Origin: Acidimicrobiia bacterium
GTDB lineage: Bacteria; Actinomycetota; Acidimicrobiia; Acidimicrobiales; AC-14
Length of the DNA stretch: 29,203 bases
Assembly (NCBI GenBank): GCA_019243595.1
Contig: JAFAUA010000077.1
Span: forward strand, 1 to 29,203
Direction: 5' to 3'
The stretch's first letter is position 1, and every line of letters begins with the position of its first letter. This document shows positions 1,635 through 13,523 of the stretch, piece after piece. The position numbers and the translations under genes are program-made. The notes below the pieces were generated by a model. The model searched no databases, was not told where the DNA came from, and worked only from the letters and a program-made list of their open reading frames with translations.

Positions 1635-2642
1635 TTAGGGCTTCTTCACCACTTCCCAGCGGACCGGCTCGCCGTCGAGCTGCCGGACGACGCCGCGCGC
1701 CTCGAGCACCCGGATGTGGGCCAGCGCCTCGCCGAGAGCGGCGCGCCGCATCCAGCCGTTGATGCGGTCCCACGACCGTGACCAGCGCATCTGGGCGGTG
1801 ATGGCCCAGGCCGTGTCCTTGCCCGACTCGATGGCGTCGATCACCTCGCCGAAGCGCTCCTCGTGGTGGGCCTTCAGCTCGTTGACGCGCGCCTGGAGGC
1901 CGACGAAGCGGTGCTCGTGGGCGGGCAGGACCTCGTCGGTCTCGAACTCGGCGACCTTGTCGAGCGAGGCCAGGTAGTCGACCAGTGGGTTCTCGGCCTG
2001 CGGATTCACGGAGATGTTCGGCGTGATCCGGGGCAGGACGTGGTCGCCCGACAGCATGAGGCGCAGGTCCCGCTCGTAGAAGCAGAGGTGGCCGGCGGTG
2101 TGGCCCGGCGTCCAGACCGACACCAGGTCCCAGCCTGGCACCTCCGGCTTGTCGCCGTCCTCGAGGAGGACATCGGGGTGGGTGGTGACGACGAACGGGA
2201 GCACCGGCATCGACGCGCCCTTCAGCGACTGCACCTCTTCCTCGGGAGCGCCGGCGCGCATGAGCAGCTCCCCCATCCGTTCGACCAGAGGCTTCGGCTC
2301 CTCGTAGCGGTCGTGGACGAGGGCTGCGTCGGCCGGATGCAGCGCCACCCACGCGCCCGACGCCTCGCGGATGCGCCCGGCGAGGCCGTAGTGGTCGGGG
2401 TGGATGTGGGTGACGAGCACGCCCTGTACGTCGCCGATGTCGAAGCCGGCCGTCACGAGACCGCGGCACAACTCGTCGAACGCCTCGTCGGTGTTCCACC
2501 CGGCGTCGACGAGGTACGGCCCCTTCTCGGTCTCGAAGGCGTAGACGAGGACGTAGCGCAGCGGGTTGTTGGGGATCGGGACGGGGATGCTCCACAGCCC
2601 GGGCCGCACCCGTTCGACGGGCGGCAGCGGCAGCTCGACCAT
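1635..2642 (-). CDS. MBL-fold metallo-hydrolase with C-terminal helical/winged domain
   Basis: A 335-residue cytoplasmic hydrolase of the metallo-beta-lactamase fold. The zinc motif H-x-H-x-D-H is H79, H81, D83, H84 in THIHPDHYGL. Later metal-ligand regions are visible in WTPGHTAGHLC, MLSGDHVLP and LPAHEHRF. The last roughly 90 residues (after FGEVIDAIESG) resemble the small helical DNA-binding-like tail seen in many actinobacterial members. The ATG at 2642 shares one base with the TGA of the upstream SDR (TGATG), which decides the start. Substrates in this broad superfamily include thioesters, lactones and phosphodiesters; nothing here identifies which. Neighbouring SDR and winged-helix genes suggest a shared transcript. 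Confidence 0.88.
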   Translation of the reverse strand: MVELPLPPVERVRPGLWSIPVPIPNNPLRYVLVYAFETEKGPYLVDAGWNTDEAFDELCRGLVTAGFDIGDVQGVLVTHIHPDHYGLAGRIREASGAWVALHPADAALVHDRYEEPKPLVERMGELLMRAGAPEEEVQSLKGASMPVLPFVVTTHPDVLLEDGDKPEVPGWDLVSVWTPGHTAGHLCFYERDLRLMLSGDHVLPRITPNISVNPQAENPLVDYLASLDKVAEFETDEVLPAHEHRFVGLQARVNELKAHHEERFGEVIDAIESGKDTAWAITAQMRWSRSWDRINGWMRRAALGEALAHIRVLEARGVVRQLDGEPVRWEVVKKP

Positions 2643-3403
2643 CAGAAGCCAGCACCGCCGTCGACGTAGATCCGCTGGCCGGTGACGTACGAACAGGCGT
2701 CGGACACCAGGAACCGCACCACGTCGGCGACGTCTTCGGGCGCGCACACCCGGCCCAACGGCATGCCGTTGTCGAGGGTGCGGATGTCTCCGACACCCAT
2801 CGCACCCTTCACCAGCCGCCGGCCCATCTCGGTGTCGACCAGGCCTGGGGCGACGATGTTCACGCGGATGCCCTTGTTCTTTTCTTCATTGGCCAGCGTC
2901 ATGGCCAGCGCCTCGAGCGCAGCCTTCGCCATGTTGTACGGCGCGCCCCCGCCCGCCAGAGCGCGGGTGGCGACGCTCGAGATCATCACGATGTCGCCGC
3001 GCTCGCGCTCGCGCATCTGGGGCACGAGCATGCGGCACAGGTGATGGGCCCCAAAGGCGTGGGTGGCGACGACGCGCGCCAGCTCGTCGGGGTCGGTCTT
3101 GGCGACCGACTGCCCGCGGCTGGCGATGCCGGCGTTGTTTACGAGGATGTCGACGTGGCCGAAGTCGGCAAGCACGGCGTCGACCATGGCCTGATCGGCG
3201 TCGACGTCGTCGACCGACGCCTGATAGGCGCCAGCGCGGCGACCGAGCGCCTCGATCTTCTTCGCGGTCTGCTCGCCCGACTCCTGGTCCTTGCGGTAGT
3301 TGATCGCCACGTCGGCGCCGTCGGCGGCCAGGCCCAACGCGATCGCCTTGCCGATACCGCGGCCGCCCCCAGTGACGAGCGCGACTCGCCCTTCAAGCGT
3401 CAT
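2642..3403 (-). CDS. Short-chain dehydrogenase/reductase (FabG-like)
   Basis: A 253-residue classical SDR, the normal length of the family. It carries the Rossmann dinucleotide motif TGGGRGIG near residue 11, the NNAG motif, an active-site Ser in MISSVA, the Y-x-x-x-K pair in YNMAK and the C-terminal VTGQRIYVDGG signature. Such enzymes oxidise or reduce hydroxy/keto groups with NAD(P)H in the cytoplasm. The first of two basic residues after the nucleotide loop (INYRKD) suggests an NADPH preference, which is inference. It sits 18 bases after the response regulator and overlaps the hydrolase gene by one base. Substrate is not predictable. Confidence 0.92.
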   Translation of the reverse strand: MTLEGRVALVTGGGRGIGKAIALGLAADGADVAINYRKDQESGEQTAKKIEALGRRAGAYQASVDDVDADQAMVDAVLADFGHVDILVNNAGIASRGQSVAKTDPDELARVVATHAFGAHHLCRMLVPQMRERERGDIVMISSVATRALAGGGAPYNMAKAALEALAMTLANEEKNKGIRVNIVAPGLVDTEMGRRLVKGAMGVGDIRTLDNGMPLGRVCAPEDVADVVRFLVSDACSYVTGQRIYVDGGAGF

Positions 3404-3421
3404 TGCCGGCGACAGTACTTG

Positions 3422-3817
3422 TCAGCTGACGGTGCAGACCGAGGCCACGAGCGACGGCGTCGAGCCCAGCTTCGCCTTCTCGACGTAGGCCGCGGCACCC
3501 AGCGCCGTGGCCCGGTCGGCGATGTCGCGGTGCCGGCCGAGCGCCGACACGACGACGACCGCCGTCTCGGGCGCGACCCTGCGGATGAGCGGGAGCGCCT
3601 CCCACCCATCCATCCCCGGCATCAGGATGTCGAGCAGCACCGCCTCGGGCTGCAGCTCCTCGGCGAGGCGCACCGCTTCCTCACCATCGAGCGCCTCCCC
3701 TACGACGTCGAACCGCCCGTCGCGCTCGAACAACGTGCGAGCCAAGAAGACGATGTCGGCCTCGTCGTCGACGAGCACCACCTTCGTCCTGGCCCCGTTC
3801 CCCCCGTCGGTCGCCAT
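3422..3817 (-). CDS. Stand-alone response regulator receiver protein (CheY-like)
   Basis: A 131-residue single receiver domain with no output domain. The acidic pair is in VLVDDEAD, the phospho-acceptor Asp is in LLDILMPGMDGWE (residue 63), the switch Ser follows VVVV, and the conserved Lys is in YVEKAK. Such proteins are phosphorylated by a histidine kinase and act by protein contacts. I start at the ATG at 3817; the frame also contains a TTG two codons upstream. No kinase gene is in the window, so it is an orphan as seen here. It leads the minus-strand run with the SDR, hydrolase, winged-helix and NifU-type genes. Confidence 0.88.
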   Translation of the reverse strand: MATDGGNGARTKVVLVDDEADIVFLARTLFERDGRFDVVGEALDGEEAVRLAEELQPEAVLLDILMPGMDGWEALPLIRRVAPETAVVVVSALGRHRDIADRATALGAAAYVEKAKLGSTPSLVASVCTVS

Positions 3818-3887
3818 GGTCAACGACGGTACGCCCCGGTGCTTGACCGTTCAACTATGCGGACAAATCGGACACCCTCGAGCCGGG

Positions 3888-4574
3888 CTACTCGATGACG
3901 TCCTCGGCCGGGAACGTGAACGGCCCGAATTCGAAGGCAGGGATGAAGAGCTCGGCGTCGCCTTCCCACGCCAGAGCTCGAACCTGGGCGGCGCTGCGGC
4001 GACCGGTCATCGCCCGGAACAGCTCGAAGGGTGTCCCCTCGAGCGACGCAACGGGAGCCCCGTCGCCGACGACGAACTCGCGGTCTGCTGCCTTCACGCG
4101 CAGGCCCGGCAACCCACGGGCCTGGAAGCTGTTGGCCAGGCCCATGGTGACGGCGAAGTCGAGGCCGACGAGCACGCCGGCGGCGTCGCGCCCTCCCGGC
4201 TGTGCCAGCGCGCCGCGGATGTCGTGCTCGTGGGTCGTCAGGTCGAGGACCCACTGCTCGTCGGTGCGATTGGGGAACATCTCGGCCACCGCTTCGACCT
4301 GGGGTGCGACCTCGGACCACTCGGTGAGGATGTCCTCGACCGGCGTCTGTTTCCGGGCGGCGACTTGGGCTGCGGTCCAGGGCTCGGTGGCCACGCCCTC
4401 GACGTTGCCGGCGATCACGTCGGCGCACACGCCAGTGACGTGGGCGAGCACGTCGCGCACTGCCCACTCTGGGCACCCGGGCACCGACGCCAGGTGCTGG
4501 TCTGCCGACGCCGAACTGACCAGGTCGCTCAGTCGCTGACGTCCGTCGGCATAGATCGGGCCGATCCCCTCCAT
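3888..4574 (-). CDS. Maleylpyruvate isomerase family mycothiol-dependent protein
   Basis: A 228-residue protein of the DinB-like mycothiol-dependent maleylpyruvate isomerase family. The N-terminal four-helix bundle shows PGCPEWAVRDVLAHVTG with H45, and the helix with HEHDIRGAL supplies H115, E116 and H117 as candidate metal ligands. A C-terminal sterol-carrier-like domain follows (from about residue 145), ending FGPFTFPAEDVIE. Characterised members use mycothiol, the actinobacterial thiol, as cofactor for isomerisation or S-transfer. The substrate of this one is unknown. The ATG at 4574 lies 7 bases after a TACAAT hexamer, which would give a leaderless message. It is 70 bases upstream of the response regulator and may or may not share its transcript. 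Confidence 0.85.
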   Translation of the reverse strand: MEGIGPIYADGRQRLSDLVSSASADQHLASVPGCPEWAVRDVLAHVTGVCADVIAGNVEGVATEPWTAAQVAARKQTPVEDILTEWSEVAPQVEAVAEMFPNRTDEQWVLDLTTHEHDIRGALAQPGGRDAAGVLVGLDFAVTMGLANSFQARGLPGLRVKAADREFVVGDGAPVASLEGTPFELFRAMTGRRSAAQVRALAWEGDAELFIPAFEFGPFTFPAEDVIE

Positions 4575-4581
4575 GCACCCA

Positions 4582-4587
4582 ATTGTA
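4582..4587 (-). promoter_or_regulatory. Likely -10 box (TACAAT) for a leaderless message of the gene at 4574
   Basis: Read on the minus strand, TACAAT matches the TATAAT consensus at five of six positions and ends exactly 7 bases before the ATG at 4574. That spacing puts the transcription start on or next to the start codon, a common arrangement in actinobacteria. No convincing -35 box is visible. Confidence 0.5.
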
Positions 4588-4627
4588 GGTGGATTGGCGT
4601 GAACCGCTCGTGGGCAGAGTGCACCCG

Positions 4628-5098
4628 ATGTTGCAACACCGCCCTCGTCCGTTCATCCTCGCCGCCGCCGGCCTGGCGGCGCTCGTCGTCGCCCTGATCG
4701 CCACCCCCGATTCCCAGGTGTTCGTGCTCGGAGCGTGGGTACTCGTGCTGGCCGGCGTCGCGGCCGTCTTCATCGGCATCGTCCTCGGCTTCCGGCGCCA
4801 GGCGCAGATGGGAACGAGCGACGCCAACCAAGCGCAGTACCTCACCGCCGACTGGGTGGGCGGGGCGCAGCTGTTCACGGTCGGCGACCGGGCCGAGCCG
4901 CCCCCGCCCGAACCCGCTCCCGAGCCGGTGACGACCCCTGCCCCAGTGCCCGCAGTCCGGCCCCATCCAGAGCCCGAACCTGAAGTGCAGCCGGTCGTCA
5001 CCAACCGGCAGTGGGGCCGCTATCCACGCGTGGCCGCCGCGGTCACGTTCGCCAACGGCCTGCGTGAGCTGATCAGGACAACCCGAGCAACTCAGTAA
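4628..5098 (+). CDS. Small membrane protein with Pro-rich tail, unknown function
   Basis: A 156-residue protein not recognised as a named family. From the ATG at 4628 there are two hydrophobic helices (about residues 9-26, FILAAAGLAALVVALIA, and 33-54, VLGAWVLVLAGVAAVFIGIVLGF), followed by basic FRRQAQ, a short soluble stretch (YLTADWVGG), a Pro/Glu-rich linker (about residues 85-120) and a final segment NRQWGRYPRVAAAVTFANGLREL. A GTG-type extension 13 codons upstream is possible but would add a charged stretch before the first helix. Its 3' end overlaps the convergent SDR gene by 26 bases. The hairpin membrane anchor plus Pro-rich stalk suggests a cytoplasmic or surface tether; that is inference. 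Confidence 0.68.
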   Translation: MLQHRPRPFILAAAGLAALVVALIATPDSQVFVLGAWVLVLAGVAAVFIGIVLGFRRQAQMGTSDANQAQYLTADWVGGAQLFTVGDRAEPPPPEPAPEPVTTPAPVPAVRPHPEPEPEVQPVVTNRQWGRYPRVAAAVTFANGLRELIRTTRATQ

Positions 5099-5828
5099 CG
5101 CCGTGATCGCGGCCGGCGAGGTAGCCGCCGTCGACGGCGACGGCCTGGCCGGTGACGAACGACGCGTCGGGTGACAGCAGGAAGGCGGCGACGGCCGCGA
5201 TCTCCTCTGGGCGTGCCCAGCGACCCAGCTTGTGCTCGCGCACGATTTCGGCTTTGGGCTCCTCCATCCCCTCCATGTCGAAGATCATCGCCGTCATCGG
5301 CGTCTCCACGAAGCCGGGACAGATGGCGTTCGCCCTGATGCCCTTGCGGCCGTAGTCGATCGCCACGTTCTTGGTCAGCAGAACCACGCCGCCCTTCGAG
5401 GCGTTGTAAGCGCTGCCTCCGGCCGTGCCCTCGAGGCCCTCGATGCTCGCCAGGGTCACGATCGAACCCCGCTCGCCGTCGACGGGCTCCTGCTCGAGCA
5501 TGCGCCGCACGGCGTGCTTCACGACGAAGAAGGTGCCGGTCAGGTTCACGGCGATGACCTGATCCCAGGACGCGGCGTCGACCAGGTGCACGGGTCCGCC
5601 ACCGGCGACGCCGGCGGCGTTCACCACGCCGTCGACGTGTCCCACGTCGTCCATCAGCGCGGCGACGGCATCCTCGTCGGTGACGTCGAGGGGTCTGACG
5701 TCGTCCTTCGCCGTCAGATCGACGCCCACGACCTGGGCGCCCTCGTCGCCCAGCCGCTCCATCGTGGCCTTGCCGATCCCCGACGCCGCCCCCGTGACTA
5801 CGACTGTCTTCCCGTCGAACCGACTCAT
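5073..5828 (-). CDS. Short-chain dehydrogenase/reductase
   Basis: A 251-residue classical SDR. The start MSRFDGKTVVVTGAASGIG at 5828 carries the glycine-rich nucleotide loop. VDGVVNAAGVAGG holds a NAAG variant of the NNAG motif, IVTLASIEG the catalytic Ser and SAYNASKGG the Tyr-Lys pair. The C-terminal VTGQAVAVDGGYLAG motif follows. A GGAGGG ribosome site stands 4 bases before the ATG. VGVDLTAKDD, with an Asp at the end of the second strand, suggests NAD(H) preference by family rule. The start is only 27 bases from the divergent LLM-oxidoreductase start. Its 3' end runs 26 bases into the end of the small membrane protein gene on the opposite strand. Confidence 0.92.
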   Translation of the reverse strand: MSRFDGKTVVVTGAASGIGKATMERLGDEGAQVVGVDLTAKDDVRPLDVTDEDAVAALMDDVGHVDGVVNAAGVAGGGPVHLVDAASWDQVIAVNLTGTFFVVKHAVRRMLEQEPVDGERGSIVTLASIEGLEGTAGGSAYNASKGGVVLLTKNVAIDYGRKGIRANAICPGFVETPMTAMIFDMEGMEEPKAEIVREHKLGRWARPEEIAAVAAFLLSPDASFVTGQAVAVDGGYLAGRDHGVTELLGLS

Positions 5829-5855
5829 CGACCCTCCGTGCGCAATAGTTGGGCG

Positions 5856-6962
5856 ATGCGGTTCGCCCTCTTCTATGAGATCCCCGTCGCTCGCCCGTGG
5901 GACGAGCAGAGCGAGTTGCGGGCTTATCAGAACACGCTCGAGCAAGCCATCGCTGGAGACCGCTTCGGCTGGGATGCCTTCTGGACGGTCGAGCACCACT
6001 TCCTGTCCGAGTACTCGCACTGCTCGAACCCCGAAGTGCTTTACGGCGCCATCGCCGCCCGCACCGAGCGCATCCGGCTCGGCTACGGCGTCCGGCTGAT
6101 GCCCAAGCCCTACAACCATCCGGTGCGCACGGCCGAGTCGGTCGCCGTGCTCGATCTGGTTTCCAACGGGCGGGTCGACATGGGGACCGGCCGCTCCTCG
6201 ACGCGGCCCGAGCTCGAGGGATTCGGCGTCGAGCCCCACGAGACACGGGCCATGTGGCAAGAGGCGATCGGCCACGTCGTCGGCTGCTGGACCAACGACG
6301 AGTACGAGTTCCACGGCCAGTACTGGGACATGCCGAAGCGGCGCGTGCTCCCCAAGCCCATCCAGAAACCGCACCCGCCACTGTGGGGAGCGACGACGAG
6401 CGACGAGGGCCACCGCCAGGTGGGCTCGCTGGGGCTTGGGCTGTGCTCCTTCGCGGTCGGCGTCTCGCCCGAGGAGGTCAAGCGCCGCATCGACATCTAC
6501 CGGGAGGCGGTCGAGCACTGCGACCAGCCGATCGGCAAGTACGTGCACAACGCGGCGGCCACCTTCACCATGACCCTGTGCGGCGACGACCGTGACGCAG
6601 CCGTCGCCGCCGCTCGCGACTCCTTCGAGTGGTACCCGAAGACCGGCGCCCGCCAGATCGCGACGGTTGCCGAGTGGATGGCCGAACGCAACGAAGAGCT
6701 CGGCAACTACGGGTACGCGGCCGACATGAAGAAGACCGACGACGAGGGGATGCTCGACCTGCTCAGCATGGAGTACCTGATCGACGAGGGCGCGTGCGTC
6801 GTCGGCACGCCGGCCGATTGCATCGAGGCCTGCCGGCGCTACGAGGCGGCGGGCGTCGATCTTCTGCTCTGCCTCGTCAACCCATGGAAGATCCCCCACG
6901 AGACGGTGATGCGCACGATCGAGCTGATGGGCACCGAGGTCATCCCCCAGTTCCGATCATGA
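5856..6962 (+). CDS. LLM class flavin/F420-dependent oxidoreductase
   Basis: A 368-residue luciferase-like monooxygenase family protein with a TIM-barrel. Typical stretches are MRFALFYEIP at the first strand, FWTVEHHFLSEYS (the HHF motif), RIRLGYGVRLMP, HPVRTAESVAVLDLVSNGRVDMGTGRSS and the C-terminal VGTPADCIEACRRYEAAGVD. In actinobacteria most such proteins use F420H2 or FMNH2 to oxidise or reduce small organic substrates in the cytoplasm. The substrate is not visible. The ATG at 5856 is chosen because similarity starts there. The TGA overlaps the ATG of the next SDR as ATGA, so the two are translationally coupled and probably act in one pathway. Confidence 0.92.
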   Translation: MRFALFYEIPVARPWDEQSELRAYQNTLEQAIAGDRFGWDAFWTVEHHFLSEYSHCSNPEVLYGAIAARTERIRLGYGVRLMPKPYNHPVRTAESVAVLDLVSNGRVDMGTGRSSTRPELEGFGVEPHETRAMWQEAIGHVVGCWTNDEYEFHGQYWDMPKRRVLPKPIQKPHPPLWGATTSDEGHRQVGSLGLGLCSFAVGVSPEEVKRRIDIYREAVEHCDQPIGKYVHNAAATFTMTLCGDDRDAAVAAARDSFEWYPKTGARQIATVAEWMAERNEELGNYGYAADMKKTDDEGMLDLLSMEYLIDEGACVVGTPADCIEACRRYEAAGVDLLLCLVNPWKIPHETVMRTIELMGTEVIPQFRS

Positions 6963-7792
6963 GTGGACCTCTCGACGGGTTCGGCGCCCTGGTCACCGGC
7001 GGTGGAAGCGGCATCGGTCTGGCGACCGCTCGCCGGCTGGCCGCCGACGGCGCCGTCGTGACCATCTGCGGTCGCAACAAGGAGCGGCTCGATGCCGCGG
7101 TCGACGAGCTCGGCGGTACCGGCAGCGGCGTTCGCTCGGTGATGGCCGACGTCACCGTCGAGGACGACGTCGTCGCCGCCGTCGAGGCCGCGTCCGACGC
7201 GCCGGGTGGGCTTCGGATCGCGGTGGCCAACGCCGGCGGCTCGTCACACATGGGTCCGCTCGTTTCGACGGGCGTCGCTGACTTCAAGGCCACCGTCGAC
7301 GTCAACATCGTCGGCACGTTCCTCACCATCAAGCACGCGGCGCCGCAGTTGGTCCGCAGCGGTGGCGGGAGCATCGTCGCCGTCTCGTCGATCGCGGCGG
7401 CCGTGAGCCACCCGTACCTCGGCGCCTACGGCGTGGGAAAGGCGGGCATCGACATGCTCGTGAAGGTGGCCGCCGACGAGCTCGGGCGCTCGAACGTGCG
7501 CGTGAATGCCGTCCGACCCGGGCTCGTCGACACCGAGCTGGTCGCCGGGATCTTCGCCACCGAAGAGGTGCTCGACAGCTACCTCACCCAGACGCCGCTC
7601 GCCCGGGCCGGACAGCCGGATGAGATCGCCGAGCTCATTCGCTTCCTCGCCGGTCCCGAATCGGCGTGGATCACCGGCCAGGCCATCAGCATCGACGGCG
7701 GCCACTCGTTGCGACGAGGCCCCGACTACACGCCGTTCGCGGAGCCCGTTTACGGCGCCGACGCCCTCCGCGGCCTCCCTCCGTCGGACTGA
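6959..7792 (+). CDS. Short-chain dehydrogenase/reductase
   Basis: A 277-residue SDR starting at the ATG of an ATGA overlap with the LLM oxidoreductase. Motifs are TGGGSGIG near residue 14, VTICGRNKERLD, VANAGGSSHMGP in place of NNAG, VAVSSIAAA for the active Ser, YGVGKAG for Tyr-Lys and ITGQAISIDGGHSLRRGPDY at the end. The tail after the signature is about 20 residues longer than minimal SDRs and overlaps the convergent potassium channel gene by 43 bases. Coupling to the LLM gene suggests consecutive redox steps on one carbon skeleton, a proposal from context only. Confidence 0.92.
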   Translation: MSGPLDGFGALVTGGGSGIGLATARRLAADGAVVTICGRNKERLDAAVDELGGTGSGVRSVMADVTVEDDVVAAVEAASDAPGGLRIAVANAGGSSHMGPLVSTGVADFKATVDVNIVGTFLTIKHAAPQLVRSGGGSIVAVSSIAAAVSHPYLGAYGVGKAGIDMLVKVAADELGRSNVRVNAVRPGLVDTELVAGIFATEEVLDSYLTQTPLARAGQPDEIAELIRFLAGPESAWITGQAISIDGGHSLRRGPDYTPFAEPVYGADALRGLPPSD

Positions 7793-8784
7793 CGTCCGGC
7801 GACGAGGTCCTCCAGCGCCGTCAGCTGCGCTGGGGTGCCGATGGCAATGAGGATGTGGCCCTCCTCCATGACCGTCTCCGGTGGCGGGTTGGTGGTGAAG
7901 CCGCCGTCTGGCGGGCGCAGAGCGAGGACGAGCGCACCCGTGTGATCTCGAACATGGGCGTTGCGGAGCGTCTGTCCGGCGATCGGCGAGCCGGCGGTCA
8001 GCTCGACCTCCTCGAGCCGGTACTCGACGTCGGTCCCGTGCATCACCACGTCGAGGAACTCGGTGACGTGGGGCTGGAGGACGAAGGCGGCCATGCGCGC
8101 CCCGCCGATGGCCTGCGGGTTGACGACGCGGTTGGCGCCGGCACGAAGCAGCTTGTCCTCTGACGATGTCACGCGCGCCCGGGCGACGATGAACAGGTCG
8201 GGCCGCAATGTGCGGCCGCTGAGCGTCAGGTAGAGGTTGTCGGCATCGCTGCTGACGGCGGCGACCAGGGCGCGGCAACGTTCAATGCCGGCGCGCTGGA
8301 GGACTGCGTCATCGGTCGCGTCACCGAGCACCGTCGGATGTGGGACCTCGGCGAGCCGTACCGGGTCGTTGTCGACGACGACCAGGTCCTGCTCCGGGGG
8401 CAGATTCTCCGCGATCGCCCGTCCGACGCGTCCCCACCCACACACGATCACGTGGCCGCTCATGCCCGCGATTCTCCGTTCCATCCGGCGCCTCCCGAAC
8501 AGGTCGCGCAACTGTCCCTCGATGATCGCCTCGAGCACCACACCGAAGGCGTAGAGCACGGTCCCGACGCCGGCCAGGATCAGAAAGATGCTGAAGACCT
8601 TGGCGCCGGCCGAGTGTGGCTGCTCACGGAAGCCGATCGTGGTCACGACCGAGGCCGTGTCGTACAGCGCCTCCAGCACGCCGACGCTGAAGATCACCAT
8701 GAATCCGACGGTGCCGACGGCGAGAACAATGACCATCGCCACCAGGGCGACGCCCACCCGCCGCCACGGACTCCGCTCCGGCAC
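7750..8784 (-). CDS. Two-TM potassium channel with cytoplasmic RCK (TrkA-N/TrkA-C) domains
   Basis: A 344-residue ion channel subunit. Residues 10-33 form the first membrane helix and 35-47 the pore helix (VLEALYDTASVV). The filter is T48-T-I-G-F52, where canonical K+ channels have TVGYG, and residues 60-86 form the second helix. From residue 109, GHVIVCGWGRVGRAIAE is the Gly-rich nucleotide loop of a TrkA-N domain, followed by a TrkA-C domain (EYRLEEVELTAGSPIAGQTLR to ILIAIGTPAQL). Such channels are gated by nucleotides or cations at the RCK ring. The GTG start at 8784 lies 18 bases after the anti-sigma-like gene, which suggests co-transcription with the sigma operon. The unusual filter makes K+ selectivity uncertain. 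Confidence 0.9.
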   Translation of the reverse strand: MPERSPWRRVGVALVAMVIVLAVGTVGFMVIFSVGVLEALYDTASVVTTIGFREQPHSAGAKVFSIFLILAGVGTVLYAFGVVLEAIIEGQLRDLFGRRRMERRIAGMSGHVIVCGWGRVGRAIAENLPPEQDLVVVDNDPVRLAEVPHPTVLGDATDDAVLQRAGIERCRALVAAVSSDADNLYLTLSGRTLRPDLFIVARARVTSSEDKLLRAGANRVVNPQAIGGARMAAFVLQPHVTEFLDVVMHGTDVEYRLEEVELTAGSPIAGQTLRNAHVRDHTGALVLALRPPDGGFTTNPPPETVMEEGHILIAIGTPAQLTALEDLVAGRQSDGGRPRRASAP

Positions 8785-8802
8785 GTGGAGTTCTTACCCG
8801 AG

Positions 8803-9636
8803 TCAGCAGCAGGAAACGATGACCGGTGTGCTCTTCCCCACCACGTTGCCCGCGGCGTCGGTGGCCTCGATGACGTAGGAGTACGTCGTGCCCGCCTGGG
8901 CGGTCGTGTCGGCGGTGCTCGTCGTGGTACGGGCGTCGCTCGAGAACAACAGGACCCGGTTGCTGCCCTGCGCCTCTCGGTAGAGGCGGTACCACGCGAA
9001 CGACGGCGAGGTGCTCTGTGTCCACGCGCACGACACGGTGGGTGAGCCGTTGACCATGGCGCCGTGACAGTTCAGCGAGAGCGTCTGGGGAGCGGCCGTC
9101 GTCGTCGTGGTGGTTTCGGGCGGGACCGTCGTCGTGACCGGCTCGTGGAACGGCACCTTCGTCGGTGTCGATTGCTCGCTCGGGCCGCTCGCGGGCGCGG
9201 GGACAACCGCACGCGGCGCAGCGGTGGTCGCCGTCGTAAGCGGTTGCGGCGGCGCCGCGGCCGGCGGGAGCCACGGTGGCGCGGCCACCGTCGTCGCCGT
9301 CGGCACGGAGGTAGGCGTCTCGTTGAAGGCGCGCGGGGGCGCCGGCACGGTCACACCGGGATCGGCGGTCGTCACCTGGCGCGGGTGCGGGTCGCTCGGC
9401 AGCAGCGTCACGGCGGCCGCGGCGGCGGCTGCGGTCATCGCCGCGACCGGACCCGCGGCAACCAGCAGTCGAGCACGGCGGCGGCGCGGGGCTCGCTGGG
9501 GTCGAGCCTCCGCTTCCGCCGCCTGATCCATCGTCCGTAGGTCCGCCTCCAACTTGGCGACGAACAGGGCGCTGGGCTCCGGCGTCGCCGAGTCCTCCAG
9601 CTCGCCGAGCAGTTCGCGTAGCTCGGTGGTCCTCAT
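8803..9636 (-). CDS. Membrane-anchored Fn3-like protein in the anti-sigma position
   Basis: A 277-residue protein whose ATG overlaps the sigma factor TGA (ATGA). The N-terminal 50 residues are charged and helical (MRTTELRELLGELEDSA). A basic patch (PRRRRAR) then leads into one hydrophobic helix (about residues 53-75), and a Pro/Thr/Ala-rich linker containing TTTVPPETTTTTT runs to about residue 185. The C-terminal domain is a beta-rich, Fn3-like fold with cysteines in SLNCHG, TVSCAW and a terminal SCC. Topology would put the N-terminus in the cytoplasm and the Fn3-like domain outside. Position and topology fit an anti-sigma factor, but the HxxxCxxC zinc motif of the common ZAS class is absent. 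The C-terminal domain is paralogous to that of the gene at 10223-10942. Confidence 0.75.
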   Translation of the reverse strand: MRTTELRELLGELEDSATPEPSALFVAKLEADLRTMDQAAEAEARPQRAPRRRRARLLVAAGPVAAMTAAAAAAAVTLLPSDPHPRQVTTADPGVTVPAPPRAFNETPTSVPTATTVAAPPWLPPAAAPPQPLTTATTAAPRAVVPAPASGPSEQSTPTKVPFHEPVTTTVPPETTTTTTAAPQTLSLNCHGAMVNGSPTVSCAWTQSTSPSFAWYRLYREAQGSNRVLLFSSDARTTTSTADTTAQAGTTYSYVIEATDAAGNVVGKSTPVIVSCC

Positions 9637-10226
9637 GACGCAGTCCTCCGACTTTCGATGGCGCGGCGCAGCGCCTTCGTCGCCCGGTGCAGGGTGACGG
9701 CGAGCACGGCCTTGGTGCACCCCATGGCGGCGGCCGCCTCGTCGGCGTCCAGCCCCGCAAGGTGGCGCAGCGAGATTGCCTCCTGGTAGCGCTCCGGGAG
9801 CGTGGACAGCGCGTCCCGCAGCAGCGCCATGTCGTCCTCGCTGTCCACGCCCTCGTCGTCGTGCACGACGTCACCGGGGTGCAGCAGCCGGAGCGCCCGT
9901 TGGCCGCGCACGCCGTTCCCGCGTGCGTTGCGGCGGTACCAGCCCGCCAGCTCGCGAGCGGCAATGGCGAACAACCACGCCTTGAAGCCGCCGCCCCGCC
10001 ACTGGAACGCCGGCATCGCCCGCCAGGCGCGCTCGAAGGTCGCCGAGGTGACCTCTTCGGCCACCTCACGCGACCCCGAGCGACGGTAGGCAAACGCGTG
10101 GACCCGAGCGACGTACTGCCGGTACAGCACGGCGAAAGCGTCGGGTGAGGTGCGAGCGGCATCTGCCAGCCCGCGCTCGTCGACCCCGTCGACCACGAGC
10201 ATGGGCAGGGAGGCCGCCAAACTCAC
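9633..10226 (-). CDS. ECF-type sigma-70 family RNA polymerase sigma factor
   Basis: A 197-residue sigma factor with only regions 2 and 4. Region 2 is FAVLYRQYVARVHAFAYRR through SATFERAWRAMPAF and WLFAIAARELAGWYRR. Region 4 is LSTLPERYQEAISLRHLAGLDADEAAAAMGCTKAVLAVTLHRATKALRR, a helix-turn-helix that would read the -35 element. The GTG at 10226 overlaps the TGA of the upstream Fn3 gene as GTGA, which favours it over the ATG eight codons later. A longer open frame upstream is a shadow of the neighbouring gene. It lies between two paralogous secreted or membrane proteins, so its activity is probably controlled across the membrane. Its target promoters are not identified. Confidence 0.9.
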   Translation of the reverse strand: MSLAASLPMLVVDGVDERGLADAARTSPDAFAVLYRQYVARVHAFAYRRSGSREVAEEVTSATFERAWRAMPAFQWRGGGFKAWLFAIAARELAGWYRRNARGNGVRGQRALRLLHPGDVVHDDEGVDSEDDMALLRDALSTLPERYQEAISLRHLAGLDADEAAAAMGCTKAVLAVTLHRATKALRRAIESRRTAS

Positions 10227-10942
10227 GGTGTGGCGGTGCCTCCCGGGCAGCAGGTGAGATGGATCGGGCCGCCCTGACCGATCAGGTGTCCGGCGGCGTC
10301 GAACGCTCCGACCCAGTACGTGTACTGGCCGCCGACCGCCAGAGGCCCGTCGACGTAGTACGTGTTGGTCACGTCGCTCGTCTCGAAGATCACTTGATGG
10401 GACGACCCGGGCACCTCGCGCGTGAGGACGTAGTGATCGAAGTTCGGTGACTTGCTCTGCGACCATTCGCACTTCGCCCAGCCCTGGTCCCCGGTGACAC
10501 CGTTCATGCAGCCGAAGCTGAGCGGCGCGACGGTCGTCGTCGGCGGTGCGGTCGTCACTGGCGGCGTTGTCGGCTCGTGGTGGACGGTCGTGCTCGTCGA
10601 CGGAGGCGGCGTCTCCTTGTGGATGGTCGTCGGCGTCGTCGACCCGGTTTCGTGGTGGACGGTCGTGGAGGTCGTCGCCCCCGGCTCGGGCGGCGGCGTC
10701 GGGATGGTGGACGAGGTCGGTTCGTGATGGACCGTGGTGCTGGTGGTCGACGTCGACGCGTGGTGGTCGCCGTTGCCGGTGCCGTTGCCGGGCGAAGAAT
10801 CATGGCCGGACCCGCCGGCCGTCGCGGACGGGGCACCGCTCTTGGCCAGTACGAGCTTGTCGACGCCCTGATACGAGGCGAGCCCCGCCACGACCGTGAC
10901 GGCGGCAACAGCCGCAGGGAGGGGGAAATGGAAACGACGCAT
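10223..10942 (-). CDS. Secreted/anchored Fn3-like protein with TTVHHE repeats
   Basis: A 239-residue protein, first gene of the sigma operon, with a good ribosome site (GAGGAG, 8 bases before the ATG). One hydrophobic segment (about residues 8-24) acts as signal anchor. A Gly/Ser/Asn linker and four loosely repeated units around TTVHHE, TTIHKE and TTVHHEP (about residues 65-125) follow. The C-terminal domain (residues 140-231) is beta-rich, with Cys in SFGCMN and WAKCEW and a Cys-Cys pair near the end (LTCC), then PGGTATP. The domain aligns along its length with the end of the protein at 8803-9636. The function is unknown; the order with the sigma gene suggests that it is a sensor, a ligand or the regulated surface protein. 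Confidence 0.75.
   Translation of the reverse strand: MRRFHFPLPAAVAAVTVVAGLASYQGVDKLVLAKSGAPSATAGGSGHDSSPGNGTGNGDHHASTSTTSTTVHHEPTSSTIPTPPPEPGATTSTTVHHETGSTTPTTIHKETPPPSTSTTVHHEPTTPPVTTAPPTTTVAPLSFGCMNGVTGDQGWAKCEWSQSKSPNFDHYVLTREVPGSSHQVIFETSDVTNTYYVDGPLAVGGQYTYWVGAFDAAGHLIGQGGPIHLTCCPGGTATP
10572..10750 (-). repeat. Four degenerate repeats encoding TTVHHE-type units
   Basis: Four copies of a roughly 27-base unit (plus-strand core TCGTGGTGGACGGTCGT), near 10575, 10614, 10650 and 10721, encode TTVHHEP, TTIHKETP, TTVHHETG and TTVHHEP. Spacers between copies are Thr/Pro rich. The copies differ at several bases, so the array is not recent. Confidence 0.7.
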
Positions 10943-11098
10943 GTACGGATCTCCTCGGCATGTGGGGTTCCGGCGTGGAGCCCTGCATGTTCAATGCCGA
11001 TCCGCGACCGCGATTTCACCGTTCGTTACGGCGCGTGACGTGTGGCATAACCCTTCGGGGCATGTGGGTAGAACGCGTGTATCTACAGGAGGTAATCA

Positions 11099-11323
11099 AT
11101 GGCACAGACGCGTACGTCTTCGTCTCGCGCCGACGTCGCCCTCGGCGCCGCGCAGGAATCGGTCCGGGCGAGTATCGAAGCGGCACAGAAGATCGCCGAC
11201 TGCTCGATGGAAGCCGGCTCCGAAGCGGCCCAGCGTGTACAGAAGTCGCTGAAGGACGCGCTCGACGCCCTCCGCGGGACACCCGCGAAGGCGACGCCGA
11301 GCGCGAACCGCGAGAGCGCCTAG
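11099..11323 (+). CDS. Small helical protein, unknown function
   Basis: A 74-residue protein with a near-ideal ribosome site: AGGAGG 7 bases before the ATG at 11099. After a Ser/Thr-rich start (MAQTRTSSSRAD) the central 45 residues have an amphipathic, Ala-rich helical pattern (LGAAQESVRASIEAAQKIAD, then AAQRVQKSLKDALDAL), faintly like short phasin-type or apolipoprotein-like helices. There is no membrane segment and one cysteine. The stop overlaps the convergent next gene's stop by four bases (CTAG). The preceding 156 bases separate it from the divergent Fn3 gene and must hold both promoters; no clear boxes were seen there. Phasin similarity is only a resemblance in composition. Confidence 0.72.
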   Translation: MAQTRTSSSRADVALGAAQESVRASIEAAQKIADCSMEAGSEAAQRVQKSLKDALDALRGTPAKATPSANRESA

Positions 11324-11589
11324 TCCACTTCGGCCCGCAGGGCGGCGGCCGCTTCCAGGGCGATGTTCGTCGTCACTGGCAGGCCGGCGCCGCTGCCGAT
11401 CCACATCGGTGCGCCCCGCCGCTCAGCGGCGGGCGCCTGATGCGGTTCGGCCTTGCTGCCGGCACGCGGGGGCTGCTGGCGATGCGACTCGAGTTGTGCG
11501 AGTACCTCGTTGAGGCGCTCCTCGTCGATCGCCGCTTGATGGCCGAACGCCTGGTCAGGCGCGTACGGATGCCACGTTGCTCGAGCCAT
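11320..11589 (-). CDS. Small hypothetical protein with structured mRNA leader
   Basis: An 89-residue protein beginning MARATWHPYAPDQAFGHQAA at the ATG at 11589, preceded by a strong purine-rich ribosome site (GAGAGGAGA). An open extension upstream to 11679 would run through the hairpins of the leader and is less likely. The N-terminal third has a DEERLNEVLAQLESH helix; the middle is Pro/Gln/Arg-rich; the end is GLPVTTNIALEAAAALRAEVD. No known family was recognised and there is no signal or membrane segment. The leader of about 100 bases carries a promoter-like box and hairpins, hinting at control at the RNA level. Confidence 0.62.
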   Translation of the reverse strand: MARATWHPYAPDQAFGHQAAIDEERLNEVLAQLESHRQQPPRAGSKAEPHQAPAAERRGAPMWIGSGAGLPVTTNIALEAAAALRAEVD

Positions 11590-11604
11590 TTGCGTCTCCT
11601 CTCG

Positions 11605-11668
11605 TTCGGCACGCCCGAAGGGTGAGGCCCCTTCAAACGCAGGACCCCTCGGTACAACCAAGGGGTCC
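11605..11668 (-). promoter_or_regulatory. Putative structured leader with alternative hairpins
   Basis: On the minus strand, GGACCCCT (11668-11661) pairs perfectly with AGGGGTCC (11649-11642), with an inner GGT/ACC pairing. The downstream segment AAGGGGCC (11633-11626) could instead pair with the first arm, GGACCCCTT, using one G-U-type or mismatched position. Nearer the gene, TTCGG (11619-11615) pairs with CCGAA (11609-11605), 16 bases before the ATG. Two mutually exclusive pairings followed by a hairpin near the ribosome site resemble attenuator or riboswitch architecture. No known riboswitch consensus was recognised. Confidence 0.45.
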
Positions 11669-11697
11669 GGTTCGTGCACTTGATTGGTGACCTCTCC

Positions 11698-11746: not shown

Positions 11747-11899
11747 GTGGGCGCAGGCGAAGATTCCCAGCCTCAGCTGTTCGACGAAAAGGTCACCAAA
11801 AGCGCCAGGCAGGACAACCGGCTGGGAGTTGCGCTCATCGCACTCGGTGCCGCGCTGCTCGTGGTGGCGATCATCGGGGCCCTGATCGTCAACCTGTAA
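11747..11899 (+). CDS. Short single-pass membrane protein, unknown
   Basis: A 50-codon frame from GTG 11747 to TAA 11897-11899. The first 25 residues are hydrophilic (VGAGEDSQPQLFDEKVTKSA) and residues 26-50 form one strongly hydrophobic helix (LGVALIALGAALLVVAIIGALIV), ending NL. A TAGCCT hexamer ends 7 bases before the GTG, fitting a leaderless promoter of the TANNNT type. The helix ends at the C-terminus, so a tail-anchored topology with the N-terminus in the cytoplasm is likely. No family was recognised. Confidence 0.55.
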   Translation: MGAGEDSQPQLFDEKVTKSARQDNRLGVALIALGAALLVVAIIGALIVNL

Positions 11900-11918
11900 C
11901 GGCTGACACCGCGCGCTG

Positions 11919-12212
11919 TCAGCGGCGGGCGATCGAACGCAGCGGGTGAGCGAGCGCCATGCCCGGGGAGAGGGCGGCGTCGAGATAGCGAATCGCCTTC
12001 TCGGCGTGCACGTCGTCGCCCTCCGCGACGCGGGCGACGAAATGCTCGCGAGCCGTCTCGAGCGCCACGCGGTCCCCGCCGGCCTCGTCGTTCAGCGTGC
12101 GGGCCGCACGACGGGTGCCCGTGCCCTGGAGGGCGAGCGTCGACGCATCCTGGATCAGCAACTGCCAGCGCCCCTGACGACGGTTCACACTGTTGCTATT
12201 GCCCGGGCCCAT
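11919..12212 (-). CDS. Small hypothetical protein
   Basis: A 97-residue frame beginning MGPGNSNSVNRRQGRWQLLI; a GTG at 12188 (VNRRQGRWQLL) is an alternative start eight codons in. The protein is helical and charged (EAGGDRVALETAREHFVARVAEGDDVHAEKAIRYLDAAL) with no membrane segment or known motif. No ribosome site is visible before either start. It stops 19 bases after the end of the small membrane protein gene on the opposite strand. Coding character looks real (charged helices, high third-position GC), but the evidence is modest. Confidence 0.5.
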   Translation of the reverse strand: MGPGNSNSVNRRQGRWQLLIQDASTLALQGTGTRRAARTLNDEAGGDRVALETAREHFVARVAEGDDVHAEKAIRYLDAALSPGMALAHPLRSIARR

Positions 12213-12261
12213 ACATGTGTAACGGCCGCGAGCGGAATTCCTAACGCTGCAACGTCGCCAG

Positions 12262-12267
12262 TAGGTT
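12262..12267 (+). promoter_or_regulatory. Likely -10 box (TAGGTT) for the CoA-transferase gene
   Basis: TAGGTT fits the actinobacterial TANNNT -10 pattern and ends 8 bases before the ATG at 12276, with no ribosome site between them. This fits leaderless transcription. No clear -35 box is present. Confidence 0.4.
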
Positions 12268-12275
12268 CAGCGCCC

Positions 12276-13523
12276 ATGCCCGACCGCCCGTTGCTCGCCG
12301 GCGTCCGCGTGGTCGAGAGCTCGATGCTGGGCCCCGCTGAAATGGGTGGTCTGCTCGCCGACCTCGGCGCCGACGTGATCAAGGTCGAGCCGCCGCAGGG
12401 CGACTACGGGCGTCAGATGACATGGCCGATCATCAAGTCATCCCGCGGCGACGGTGACGCATCGCTGCTCTCGCTGCACATCAACCGGGGCAAGCGCTCG
12501 ATCGCCATCGACCTGCGCAAGCCCGAAGGCGTGCAGATCTATCTGGACCTCGTAAAGGACGCCGACGTCGTCATCGAGGCCATGCGGCCCGGCGCCCTGG
12601 CCAAACGCGGCCTCTCCTATGAGCGGCTCCGCGAGCTCAACCCCAAGATCGTGTTCTGCTCGATCTCGGGTTACGGGGCCACCGGCCCGTACAAGGAGTA
12701 TCCGAGCCACGGCATCGCCTACGACACCTGGGCCGGTCAGGTCCCCGTCGCCGAGGACGAGCACGGGTACACGTATCTGCCCGAGCACACGAGCATCGGC
12801 ATCCACGCCGGACCGCTGTACGGCGCCCTCGCCATCCTCGCGGCGGTGATTGGCGCACGCGAGTCGGGCGAGGGGTGCTACGTCGACGTTGCTCAGGCCG
12901 ACTCGGCGGCCTACTTCGACTGGTACCGCATCGAGTCGTGGCGCGCTTACGAGCGACCCGGCGACGAGGTCTACGGCAACAAGTCCGACAACTACGAGCG
13001 GCGGGCGCCCGGGACCGCGGGGATGAAAGAGGGCGTGCGCTACCAGGTGTACGCGACCGCCGACGGCGGGCACGTGTTGTTCATGGCGAGTGAGCAGGCG
13101 TTCTGGAAGAACTTCTGCGAGGGCGTCGACCGCATGGACCTCTTCGAGCGCTGGCCGGGTTCGAAGTTCGCCGACCACGCCCGCAACAACCTCGAGCTCC
13201 AGGGGATCCTCACCGACATCTTCAAGCAGAAGACCGCCGGGGAGTGGATCGAGTTCGGCGGCACGCACAACACCCCGATCGCGCCGGTCAACACGACGAA
13301 GACGATCGCTGCCGACCCGCAGTTCCAGCATCGCCTGCCGTGGATCCCAAAGGAACAGCTAGAAGCCGACATGCTCCCGTTCCCGGCGCAGCTGACCGAC
13401 GCTGCGCTTCGGGTTCCCGAGCGGGCGCCGGACGTCGGTGAGCACACCGATTCCGTGCTGGGGGACGCCGGCTACGACGACGATCGCATCGCCGCCCTCC
13501 GCGAGGAGGGCGTGGTCTTCTAG
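12276..13523 (+). CDS. Class III CoA-transferase (CaiB/BaiF family)
   Basis: A 415-residue enzyme of the formyl-CoA transferase (CaiB/BaiF) family, which moves CoA between carboxylic acids through an aspartyl-CoA anhydride. The N-terminal LLAGVRVVESSMLGPAEMGG and LADLGADVIKVEPPQGDYGR, the NRGKRSIAIDLRKPEG block and ISGYGATGPY are typical. The catalytic Asp is most likely D209 in VAQADSAAYF. The start at 12276 follows a TAGGTT box by 8 bases; a longer frame upstream has no supporting signal and overlaps the gene on the other strand. A terminator-like hairpin follows the stop, so the gene may be its own transcript. Likely role: activating an organic acid for degradation; the acid is unknown. 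Confidence 0.93.
   Translation: MPDRPLLAGVRVVESSMLGPAEMGGLLADLGADVIKVEPPQGDYGRQMTWPIIKSSRGDGDASLLSLHINRGKRSIAIDLRKPEGVQIYLDLVKDADVVIEAMRPGALAKRGLSYERLRELNPKIVFCSISGYGATGPYKEYPSHGIAYDTWAGQVPVAEDEHGYTYLPEHTSIGIHAGPLYGALAILAAVIGARESGEGCYVDVAQADSAAYFDWYRIESWRAYERPGDEVYGNKSDNYERRAPGTAGMKEGVRYQVYATADGGHVLFMASEQAFWKNFCEGVDRMDLFERWPGSKFADHARNNLELQGILTDIFKQKTAGEWIEFGGTHNTPIAPVNTTKTIAADPQFQHRLPWIPKEQLEADMLPFPAQLTDAALRVPERAPDVGEHTDSVLGDAGYDDDRIAALREEGVVF

Follow-up and report, generated by a model that had tools for sequence, protein, structure and literature searches.

We analyzed a 29,203-nt stretch of DNA from an Acidimicrobiia bacterium (assembly GCA_019243595.1, contig JAFAUA010000077.1; hereafter the window) and focused on three adjacent genes on its minus strand. 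The first (10223..10942) encodes a 239-amino acid protein, here named SEC, which by its hydrophobic N terminus is predicted to be secreted or signal-anchored and carries a Thr/Pro/His-rich linker and a C-terminal Fn3-like domain (10247..10522) with Cys at domain positions 5, 18, 91, and 92. The second (9633..10226) encodes a BldN-like extracytoplasmic function (ECF) sigma factor of 197 amino acids, and the third (8803..9636) a putative membrane anti-sigma factor of 277 amino acids, named AS. The latter would consist of a short cytoplasmic segment (residues 1–55, 9472..9636), a transmembrane helix at about residues 58–76 (9409..9465) with an Arg cluster ahead of it, a linker, and an external Fn3-like domain (8806..9081) with Cys–Cys as its C terminus. 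The helix was located by hydrophobicity, the best 19-residue window scoring 1.86 at residue 58. Ahead of SEC lies a promoter-like motif, TGAAATC-N15-CATTG (10992..11018, minus strand), which starts 76 bases before the start codon. A preliminary description of this DNA had reported overlaps of four bases between the genes, and all three frames are present: the sigma/AS overlap is ATGA (9633–9636) and the SEC/sigma overlap GTGA (10223–10226), the latter being conditional on a GTG start of the sigma gene. An alternative ATG start eight codons downstream would abolish the SEC/sigma overlap.

The sigma protein matched the Pfam families Sigma70_r2 (PF04542, 4e-14) and Sigma70_r4_2 (PF08281, 1.5e-10) as well as the model TIGR02937, all above cut-off. 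With the sigma2 and sigma4 regions only in its 197 amino acids, it is by domain content an ECF sigma factor. Its best NCBIfam model was the BldN family (TIGR02952), at 86.7 bits under the curated cut-off of 206.45 bits, and the best PDB match of the sigma family profile was 6dxo (E 1e-29, profile positions 9–88 only). We take 6dxo to be the RsbN–BldN complex. The paper on the RsbN–BldN structure is cited in PMC7406223 and PMC8103513; here and below, the cited papers are represented by excerpts.

In a two-sequence BLASTP comparison, the C-terminal parts of the two flanking proteins, SEC and AS, aligned over 92 residues without gaps at 35% identity (E 2e-19). The cysteines, the S(K/T)SP(N/S)F motif, the Arg–Glu pair, and the DAAG stretch were all in register, bearing out the shared C-terminal domain proposed in the preliminary description. 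Both domains were modeled as all-beta by AlphaFold2 with six-row alignments (pLDDT 96.5 for AS and 96.7 for SEC, pTM 0.86), and the top Foldseek matches in PDB were mostly Fn3 domains or Fn3-containing proteins (best E 6e-4 and 3e-4, TM-scores ∼0.5–0.8). The structure prediction thus gave the same fold for SEC and AS, a predicted Fn3 beta-sandwich. In Pfam, neither window protein matched PF00041 (fn3) at E ≤ 1, and SEC had no match above cut-off; because of this, the Fn3 assignment stands on structure prediction and on relatives, the SEC of locus L040 passing PF00041 with 28.9 bits (L and G numbers denote our loci and genomes). The strand register in the model, rather than the coordinates, puts C5 opposite C18 across the A–B hairpin. 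At E ≤ 1, the SEC and AS domains were the only two of their kind in their own genome (assembly of 3.7 Mb, 81.5% complete).

The genome collection supplied two loci, L005 (uncultured Chloroflexi bacterium) and L006 (Thermomicrobiales bacterium), and further cassettes were sought using the sigma factor. At E ≤ 1e-50, a sigma profile of 10 rows (A4) matched 14 of the 397 genomes from the window's order, and it matched 3 of 177 genomes from the class of L006's genome. A search of the phylum matched 12 of 396 genomes at E ≤ 1e-38, consisting of the window's own genome and 11 with a sister sigma clade. All these counts are lower bounds, since 8–19 candidates were scored per genome. One sigma clade (support 97/95) comprised 19 loci from 17 genomes, Chloroflexota/Thermomicrobiota among them, and the order SEC–sigma–AS, with an Fn3 domain in SEC recognized by hidden Markov model (HMM), was found in 15 of the 19, three of these from the Thermomicrobiota/Chloroflexota class. 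In L148, SEC lacks its beginning because the contig ends there; the upstream gene of L090 is also truncated and did not score, and no SEC was recognized upstream of the sigma gene in L089 and L138. On the AS side, a C-terminal Fn3-like domain was detected by HMM in nine loci (window, L036, L037, L038, L040, L041, L044, L091, and L141). A profile of 11 AS domains, three of them from these nine loci, matched the SEC-type profile with a probability of 96.8 (E 2e-10), as a whole and not member by member; for L138 and L140, the AS domain was judged solely by eye.

The position and topology of AS are anti-sigma-like, in agreement with the preliminary description. In an alignment of 17 AS proteins, window included, a conserved N-terminal segment is followed by a hydrophobic stretch, L10 and P19 being invariant and F25, L29, and L33 nearly so. 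Overlap with the sigma gene was seen in all 18 readable loci, with four bases in 15 and eight bases in 3 (start codons picked by script). The window protein aligned with the anti-sigma factor model NF052375 over residues 4–89 with 16.2 bits (E 0.008), the curated cut-off being 100 bits. There is no Hx3Cx2C zinc motif, residues 1–180 of AS having no Cys; this motif marks zinc-type class I anti-sigma domains (ASDI; PMC7406223), and non-zinc ASDI forms exist. As a membrane protein, AS probably keeps the sigma factor off, and residues 1–55 would be the segment that binds it.

Upstream of SEC, the pattern TGNAAYS-N15/16-CRTTK was present in all of the first 10 cassettes (window, L005, L006, L036–L041, and L044), with its first base 34–82 bases ahead of the SEC gene; the SEC start of L040 is unsure, and the distance there was measured to a chosen point. 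Among dinucleotide-shuffled sets (n = 2000), the pattern occurred in none of the 10 regions in 1972 sets and in one of the 10 in 28. In an exact-word dyad search, the best pair was shared by 5 of 12 regions and did not rise above the shuffle maxima of 4 to 6. The pattern had first been read by eye from the same upstream sequences and then tested, and the motif search was therefore repeated unguided: a two-box profile search returned the same sites with 17.7 bits, compared with a shuffle mean of 10.9 (standard deviation 0.34, maximum 12.4, n = 60). Seven further loci with upstream DNA had been held out, the truncated L090 and L148 standing outside this set, and three of them contained the exact motif. 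In L140, it lies upstream of SEC; in L089 and L138, which are without SEC, it lies ∼390–420 bases before the sigma core. In L141 and L139, the –35-like box is present and the –10-like box is one base off. The sequences from which the motif was first read included those of L089 and L091, but the L089 site lies beyond the 200 bases used for that reading. Written as TGAAAT-N16-CATTGA, the window site has the same spacing as the BldN element CGTAAC-N16-CGTTGA and similar boxes (PMC2375139), and we infer that the window sigma factor uses it.

Within its own genome, the pattern TGHAAYS-N15/16-CRTTK matched once, at 10992–11018 on the minus strand, and a reversed-pattern control three times; the cassette itself is, by this count, the only predicted target there. 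The motif and control counts in other carriers were 4 and 11 (G055), 5 and 3 (G188), 11 and 21 (G106), 41 and 29 (G170), 2 and 0 (G038), 29 and 15 (G166), 37 and 27 (G017), 9 and 7 (G178), 10 and 3 (G763, the genome of L005), and 2 and 3 (the genome of L006). In G170, an almost unchanged word of 27 bases, TGAAATGCACCACACCCGACCCCRTTG, is found again and again on different contigs (many in all, e.g., C117:2988, C127:3922, and C148:17609) and is likely a repeated or mobile element, inflating the motif count of this genome. We considered a large regulon and set it aside: the own genome has one motif, and the ten other carriers, lacking a consistent excess, provide no firm evidence for or against it there.

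The AS ectodomains were of two kinds. Those of the window, L036, L037, L038, and L141 have the SEC-type C..C.W pair and no FecR-like segment; the others are without the SEC-type Cys pair, and in nine of them a simple pattern detected a FecR-like stretch ahead of the domain. The C-terminal Cys–Cys was present in both SEC and AS of the window, L036, and L037 and in neither protein of the other 11 among 14 cassettes compared; L040, with a broken AS, and L090, with its SEC truncated at the start, were outside this comparison. We did not take the terminal Cys–Cys as proof of SEC–AS pairing, as its positives may go back to one or two events, but kept the 14 of 14 agreement as weak support. A tree was inferred for 42 domains (25 SEC and 17 AS). 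L138 and L140 did not contribute their AS domains, nor L148 its two SEC domains; sister-clade domains were likewise left out, and several SEC domains were trimmed at the ends of the HMM envelope. Twelve AS domains formed one group (94/87). The AS domains of the window, L036, and L037 sat with the SEC domains of the window and L036 (94/89), that of L141 was placed beside the L141 SEC with weak support, and that of L038 was unplaced. Monophyly of all 17 AS domains was rejected by the approximately unbiased (AU) test (p 0.022), as it was without L141 and L038 (p 0.036), a test named after the tree was seen. When the cysteines were masked, the SEC/AS label required five changes (bootstrap range 4–6), and a single change was not enough in any of 200 bootstrap trees. 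These results suggest that the AS ectodomain in the window/L036/L037 subgroup was probably replaced by a copy of the product (SEC) domain.

The preliminary description knew of no system with this layout. That was too strong, as the gene order is that of mpt83–sigK–rskA and product-like ectodomains are found in RsgI. MPT83 and MPT70 are fasciclin rather than Fn3 proteins, and the C-terminal domain of the window SEC is Fn3-like. The genes mpt83–sigK–rskA, coding for a surface or secreted protein, an ECF sigma factor, and a membrane anti-sigma factor, amount to a minimal cassette, with a SigK site upstream of the surface-protein gene mpt83 and eleven genes under SigK control (PMC7509140). The window shares the gene order and likewise has a motif upstream of the first gene, which its sigma factor presumably uses. 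Homology between the RskA sensor and MPT83 is not mentioned in the excerpt of PMC7509140, whereas the SEC and AS domains of the window are homologous. A further difference is in reach, the eleven genes of SigK contrasting with the cassette alone as the predicted target in its own genome.

SigI factors are not known as ECF factors of the kind found in the window. RsgI anti-sigma factors of Clostridium thermocellum have ectodomains that are homologous to regulon products and bind polysaccharides, the GH10 domain of RsgI6 being 57% identical to Xyn10D, and SigI factors recognize their own promoters (PMC4711584). The likeness to the window lies in an external anti-sigma domain homologous to a secreted regulon product and in self-recognition, the window sigma factor having a putative motif at its own operon. 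The RsgI domains differ in being carbohydrate-binding modules, PA14, or GH10, with a regulon of many enzymes, and the excerpt describes sigI–rsgI pairs rather than a three-gene operon that includes the product; a Pfam search at E ≤ 1 detected no RsgI domain in the window AS. The third comparison is with BldN, which activates secreted coat proteins, the chaplins and rodlins, in Streptomyces (PMC4255298). BldN/RsbN is near to the window system in its NCBIfam model, in the nearest solved sigma factor (6dxo), and in a similar promoter element; it differs in that the window sigma factor falls under the BldN-family cut-off and the AS N-terminal profile misses RsbN, and the excerpts mention neither an Fn3 ectodomain nor a SEC gene for RsbN. 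In the literature searched, outside which the main ECF reclassification paper lies, we found no description of a product-like ectodomain combined with the SEC–sigma–AS order, nor of Fn3 ectodomains in ECF anti-sigma factors, a group that may be covered by that paper.

The sequences support a conserved three-gene unit, an AS protein with a single helix, homology between the two external domains, and a promoter-like motif heading the operon. We give about an even chance to the reading that these form a self-contained, autoregulated ECF cassette that senses its own surface product, either pairing with SEC or binding the partner that SEC binds. AS would hold the BldN-like sigma factor at the membrane until an outside signal inactivated it through loss of AS; regulated proteolysis, known from other membrane anti-sigma factors, is the probable route. 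The freed sigma factor would then start transcription of its own operon at the motif ahead of SEC, with the secreted Fn3 protein as the main output together with more sigma factor and AS. The AS ectodomain would read the state of the product, pairing with SEC or binding its partner, and accumulated SEC may reset AS to the inhibitory state. Such a role is the most likely one for the AS ectodomain because it belongs to the same family as the product domain and in one subgroup is probably its copy; product sensing is also the likeliest purpose because the cassette is the only predicted target in its own genome. We are more tentative, and rather doubtful, about the specific version in which the ectodomain is a tethered copy of the product, renewed more than once, that meters SEC outside by pairing and sets its surface level; the matched C-terminal Cys–Cys possibly helps such pairing. 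To our knowledge, the signal of many ECF anti-sigma ectodomains is unknown. For the window AS, the operon may reveal the signal, the sole predicted target in the own genome encoding a protein of the sensor's domain family. If true, the cassette would be a compact circuit, open to transfer, with which a bacterium gauges a surface protein that it makes itself, and it would offer a tractable system for studying how a sensor arises from what it senses.

Several results weigh against product sensing. The AS ectodomain of most other cassettes is a diverged Fn3 domain without the SEC-type cysteines, so that the system does not depend on a close resemblance to SEC. On the sigma tree, in which L037 is unresolved, the three Cys–Cys positives may trace to one or two events. 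Support is weak (65/46) for the fork that separates the two halves of the domain tree, and AS monophyly was not rejected with the cysteines masked (AU p 0.083). AS was accepted by no curated anti-sigma model in Pfam or NCBIfam, and its N-terminal profile (A5) gave chance-like matches only in PDB, with no solved anti-sigma factor and RsbN not found. Among the held-out loci, L142 and L091 are without the motif; the counts in the ten other carriers are below, near, or above the control with no consistent excess, further targets being possible there, and the 81.5% completeness of the own assembly limits the one-target prediction. Finally, the preliminary description had asked for the three-gene order in related genomes. 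The order recurs across the clade (15 of 19 loci), with carriers in further families of the window's order as well as in Chloroflexota/Thermomicrobiota, but the sigma factor was not found in nine other genomes of the window's own family searched.

A possible alternative, nearly as likely as product sensing, is that AS and SEC never meet but both bind one external wall or matrix polymer, in the style of RsgI; the ligand on AS would free the sigma factor and lead to more ligand-binding SEC. RsgI provides a precedent, with polysaccharide-binding ectodomains homologous to regulon enzymes and SigI using its own promoters (PMC4711584), and related Fn3 domains, presumably extracellular, occur in long open frames in other genomes of the order. 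However, Pfam scans of three SEC proteins (window, L006, and L040) recognized no enzymatic or carbohydrate-binding domain, and nothing beyond the cassette is predicted as a target in the own genome. The similarity could also reflect reuse of Fn3 as a common extracellular spacer, the surface protein merely being under an ECF sigma factor with no coupling between the two domains. The distance of many AS ectodomains from SEC, given by the profile comparison above, fits this, as does the sister sigma clade, whose AS has FecR-like and paired Fn3-like domains with no recognized SEC. We nevertheless consider simple reuse unlikely: distant cassettes have Fn3 in SEC and AS alike, the AS domain of some cassettes seems to have given way to one of the SEC type, and the terminal Cys–Cys is jointly present or absent in every cassette compared. 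Least probable, and very unlikely, is that AS is no anti-sigma factor but a co-expressed second surface protein, with the sigma factor controlled otherwise. The lack of a Pfam anti-sigma domain and of a zinc motif and the missed curated cut-off would agree with that; the overlap with sigma in every readable locus and the conserved N-terminal segment ahead of a hydrophobic stretch in the 17 aligned proteins speak against it.

The edges of the unit were delimited by comparison with G197, a genome of the same genus. In blastn against its locus L154, window positions 5075–8799 correspond to 2204–5925 (82%) and 11449–11691 to 6184–6424 (80%); positions 11834–13521 were also matched, and the collinear flanks together show 80–82% identity. 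The stretch 8800..11448 is missing in G197, with 258 other bases in its place. A small divergent frame with no Pfam match (11099–11323, plus strand, 74 amino acids) lies inside this stretch and may travel with the cassette. Since the stretch is missing between conserved flanks, the cassette, its promoter region, and this frame appear to come or go together, and the patchy spread of the cassette fits gain or loss as one unit. An ion-channel gene with TrkA-N and TrkA-C domains (7750–8784, minus strand) begins 18 bases after AS. It was ruled out as a fourth member, other cassettes having other genes in that place, and is considered a neighbor because G197, which is without the cassette, has a relative of it with 80% identity. 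By eye, the genes downstream of AS are mostly unlike between cassettes; L039 and L139 have a common gene after AS, and L089 and L090 both a glmU-like gene, though they come from different families.

Some loci depart from the usual arrangement. In L091, the place of the Fn3 gene is taken by another secreted-looking protein (frame ending at 1629) with, by eye, a LARTG-like end, a hydrophobic stretch, and an Arg tail; we assume the LARTG-type C terminus to be a sortase-substrate motif. The AS of this locus still has an Fn3-like domain. In L040 (3863–7017, minus strand), the sigma frame continues without the usual AS, the Fn3 stretch of AS is found in a different frame, and the SEC open frame has no clear start, reflecting frame changes or assembly errors. 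The sister sigma clade comprises L074–L087, 14 loci of G264, G313, G333, G343, G363, G374, G385, G396, G424, and G517, and no Fn3 gene was recognized upstream of the sigma gene in the stretches fetched. Where readable, the downstream protein has a FecR-like segment (weak Pfam matches in two of three scanned) and paired Fn3-like domains (weak HMM matches), and several contain a P-x-YPG motif. L088 grouped with the sister clade on a long branch, and its AS is short (99 amino acids), without FecR-like or Fn3-like domains.

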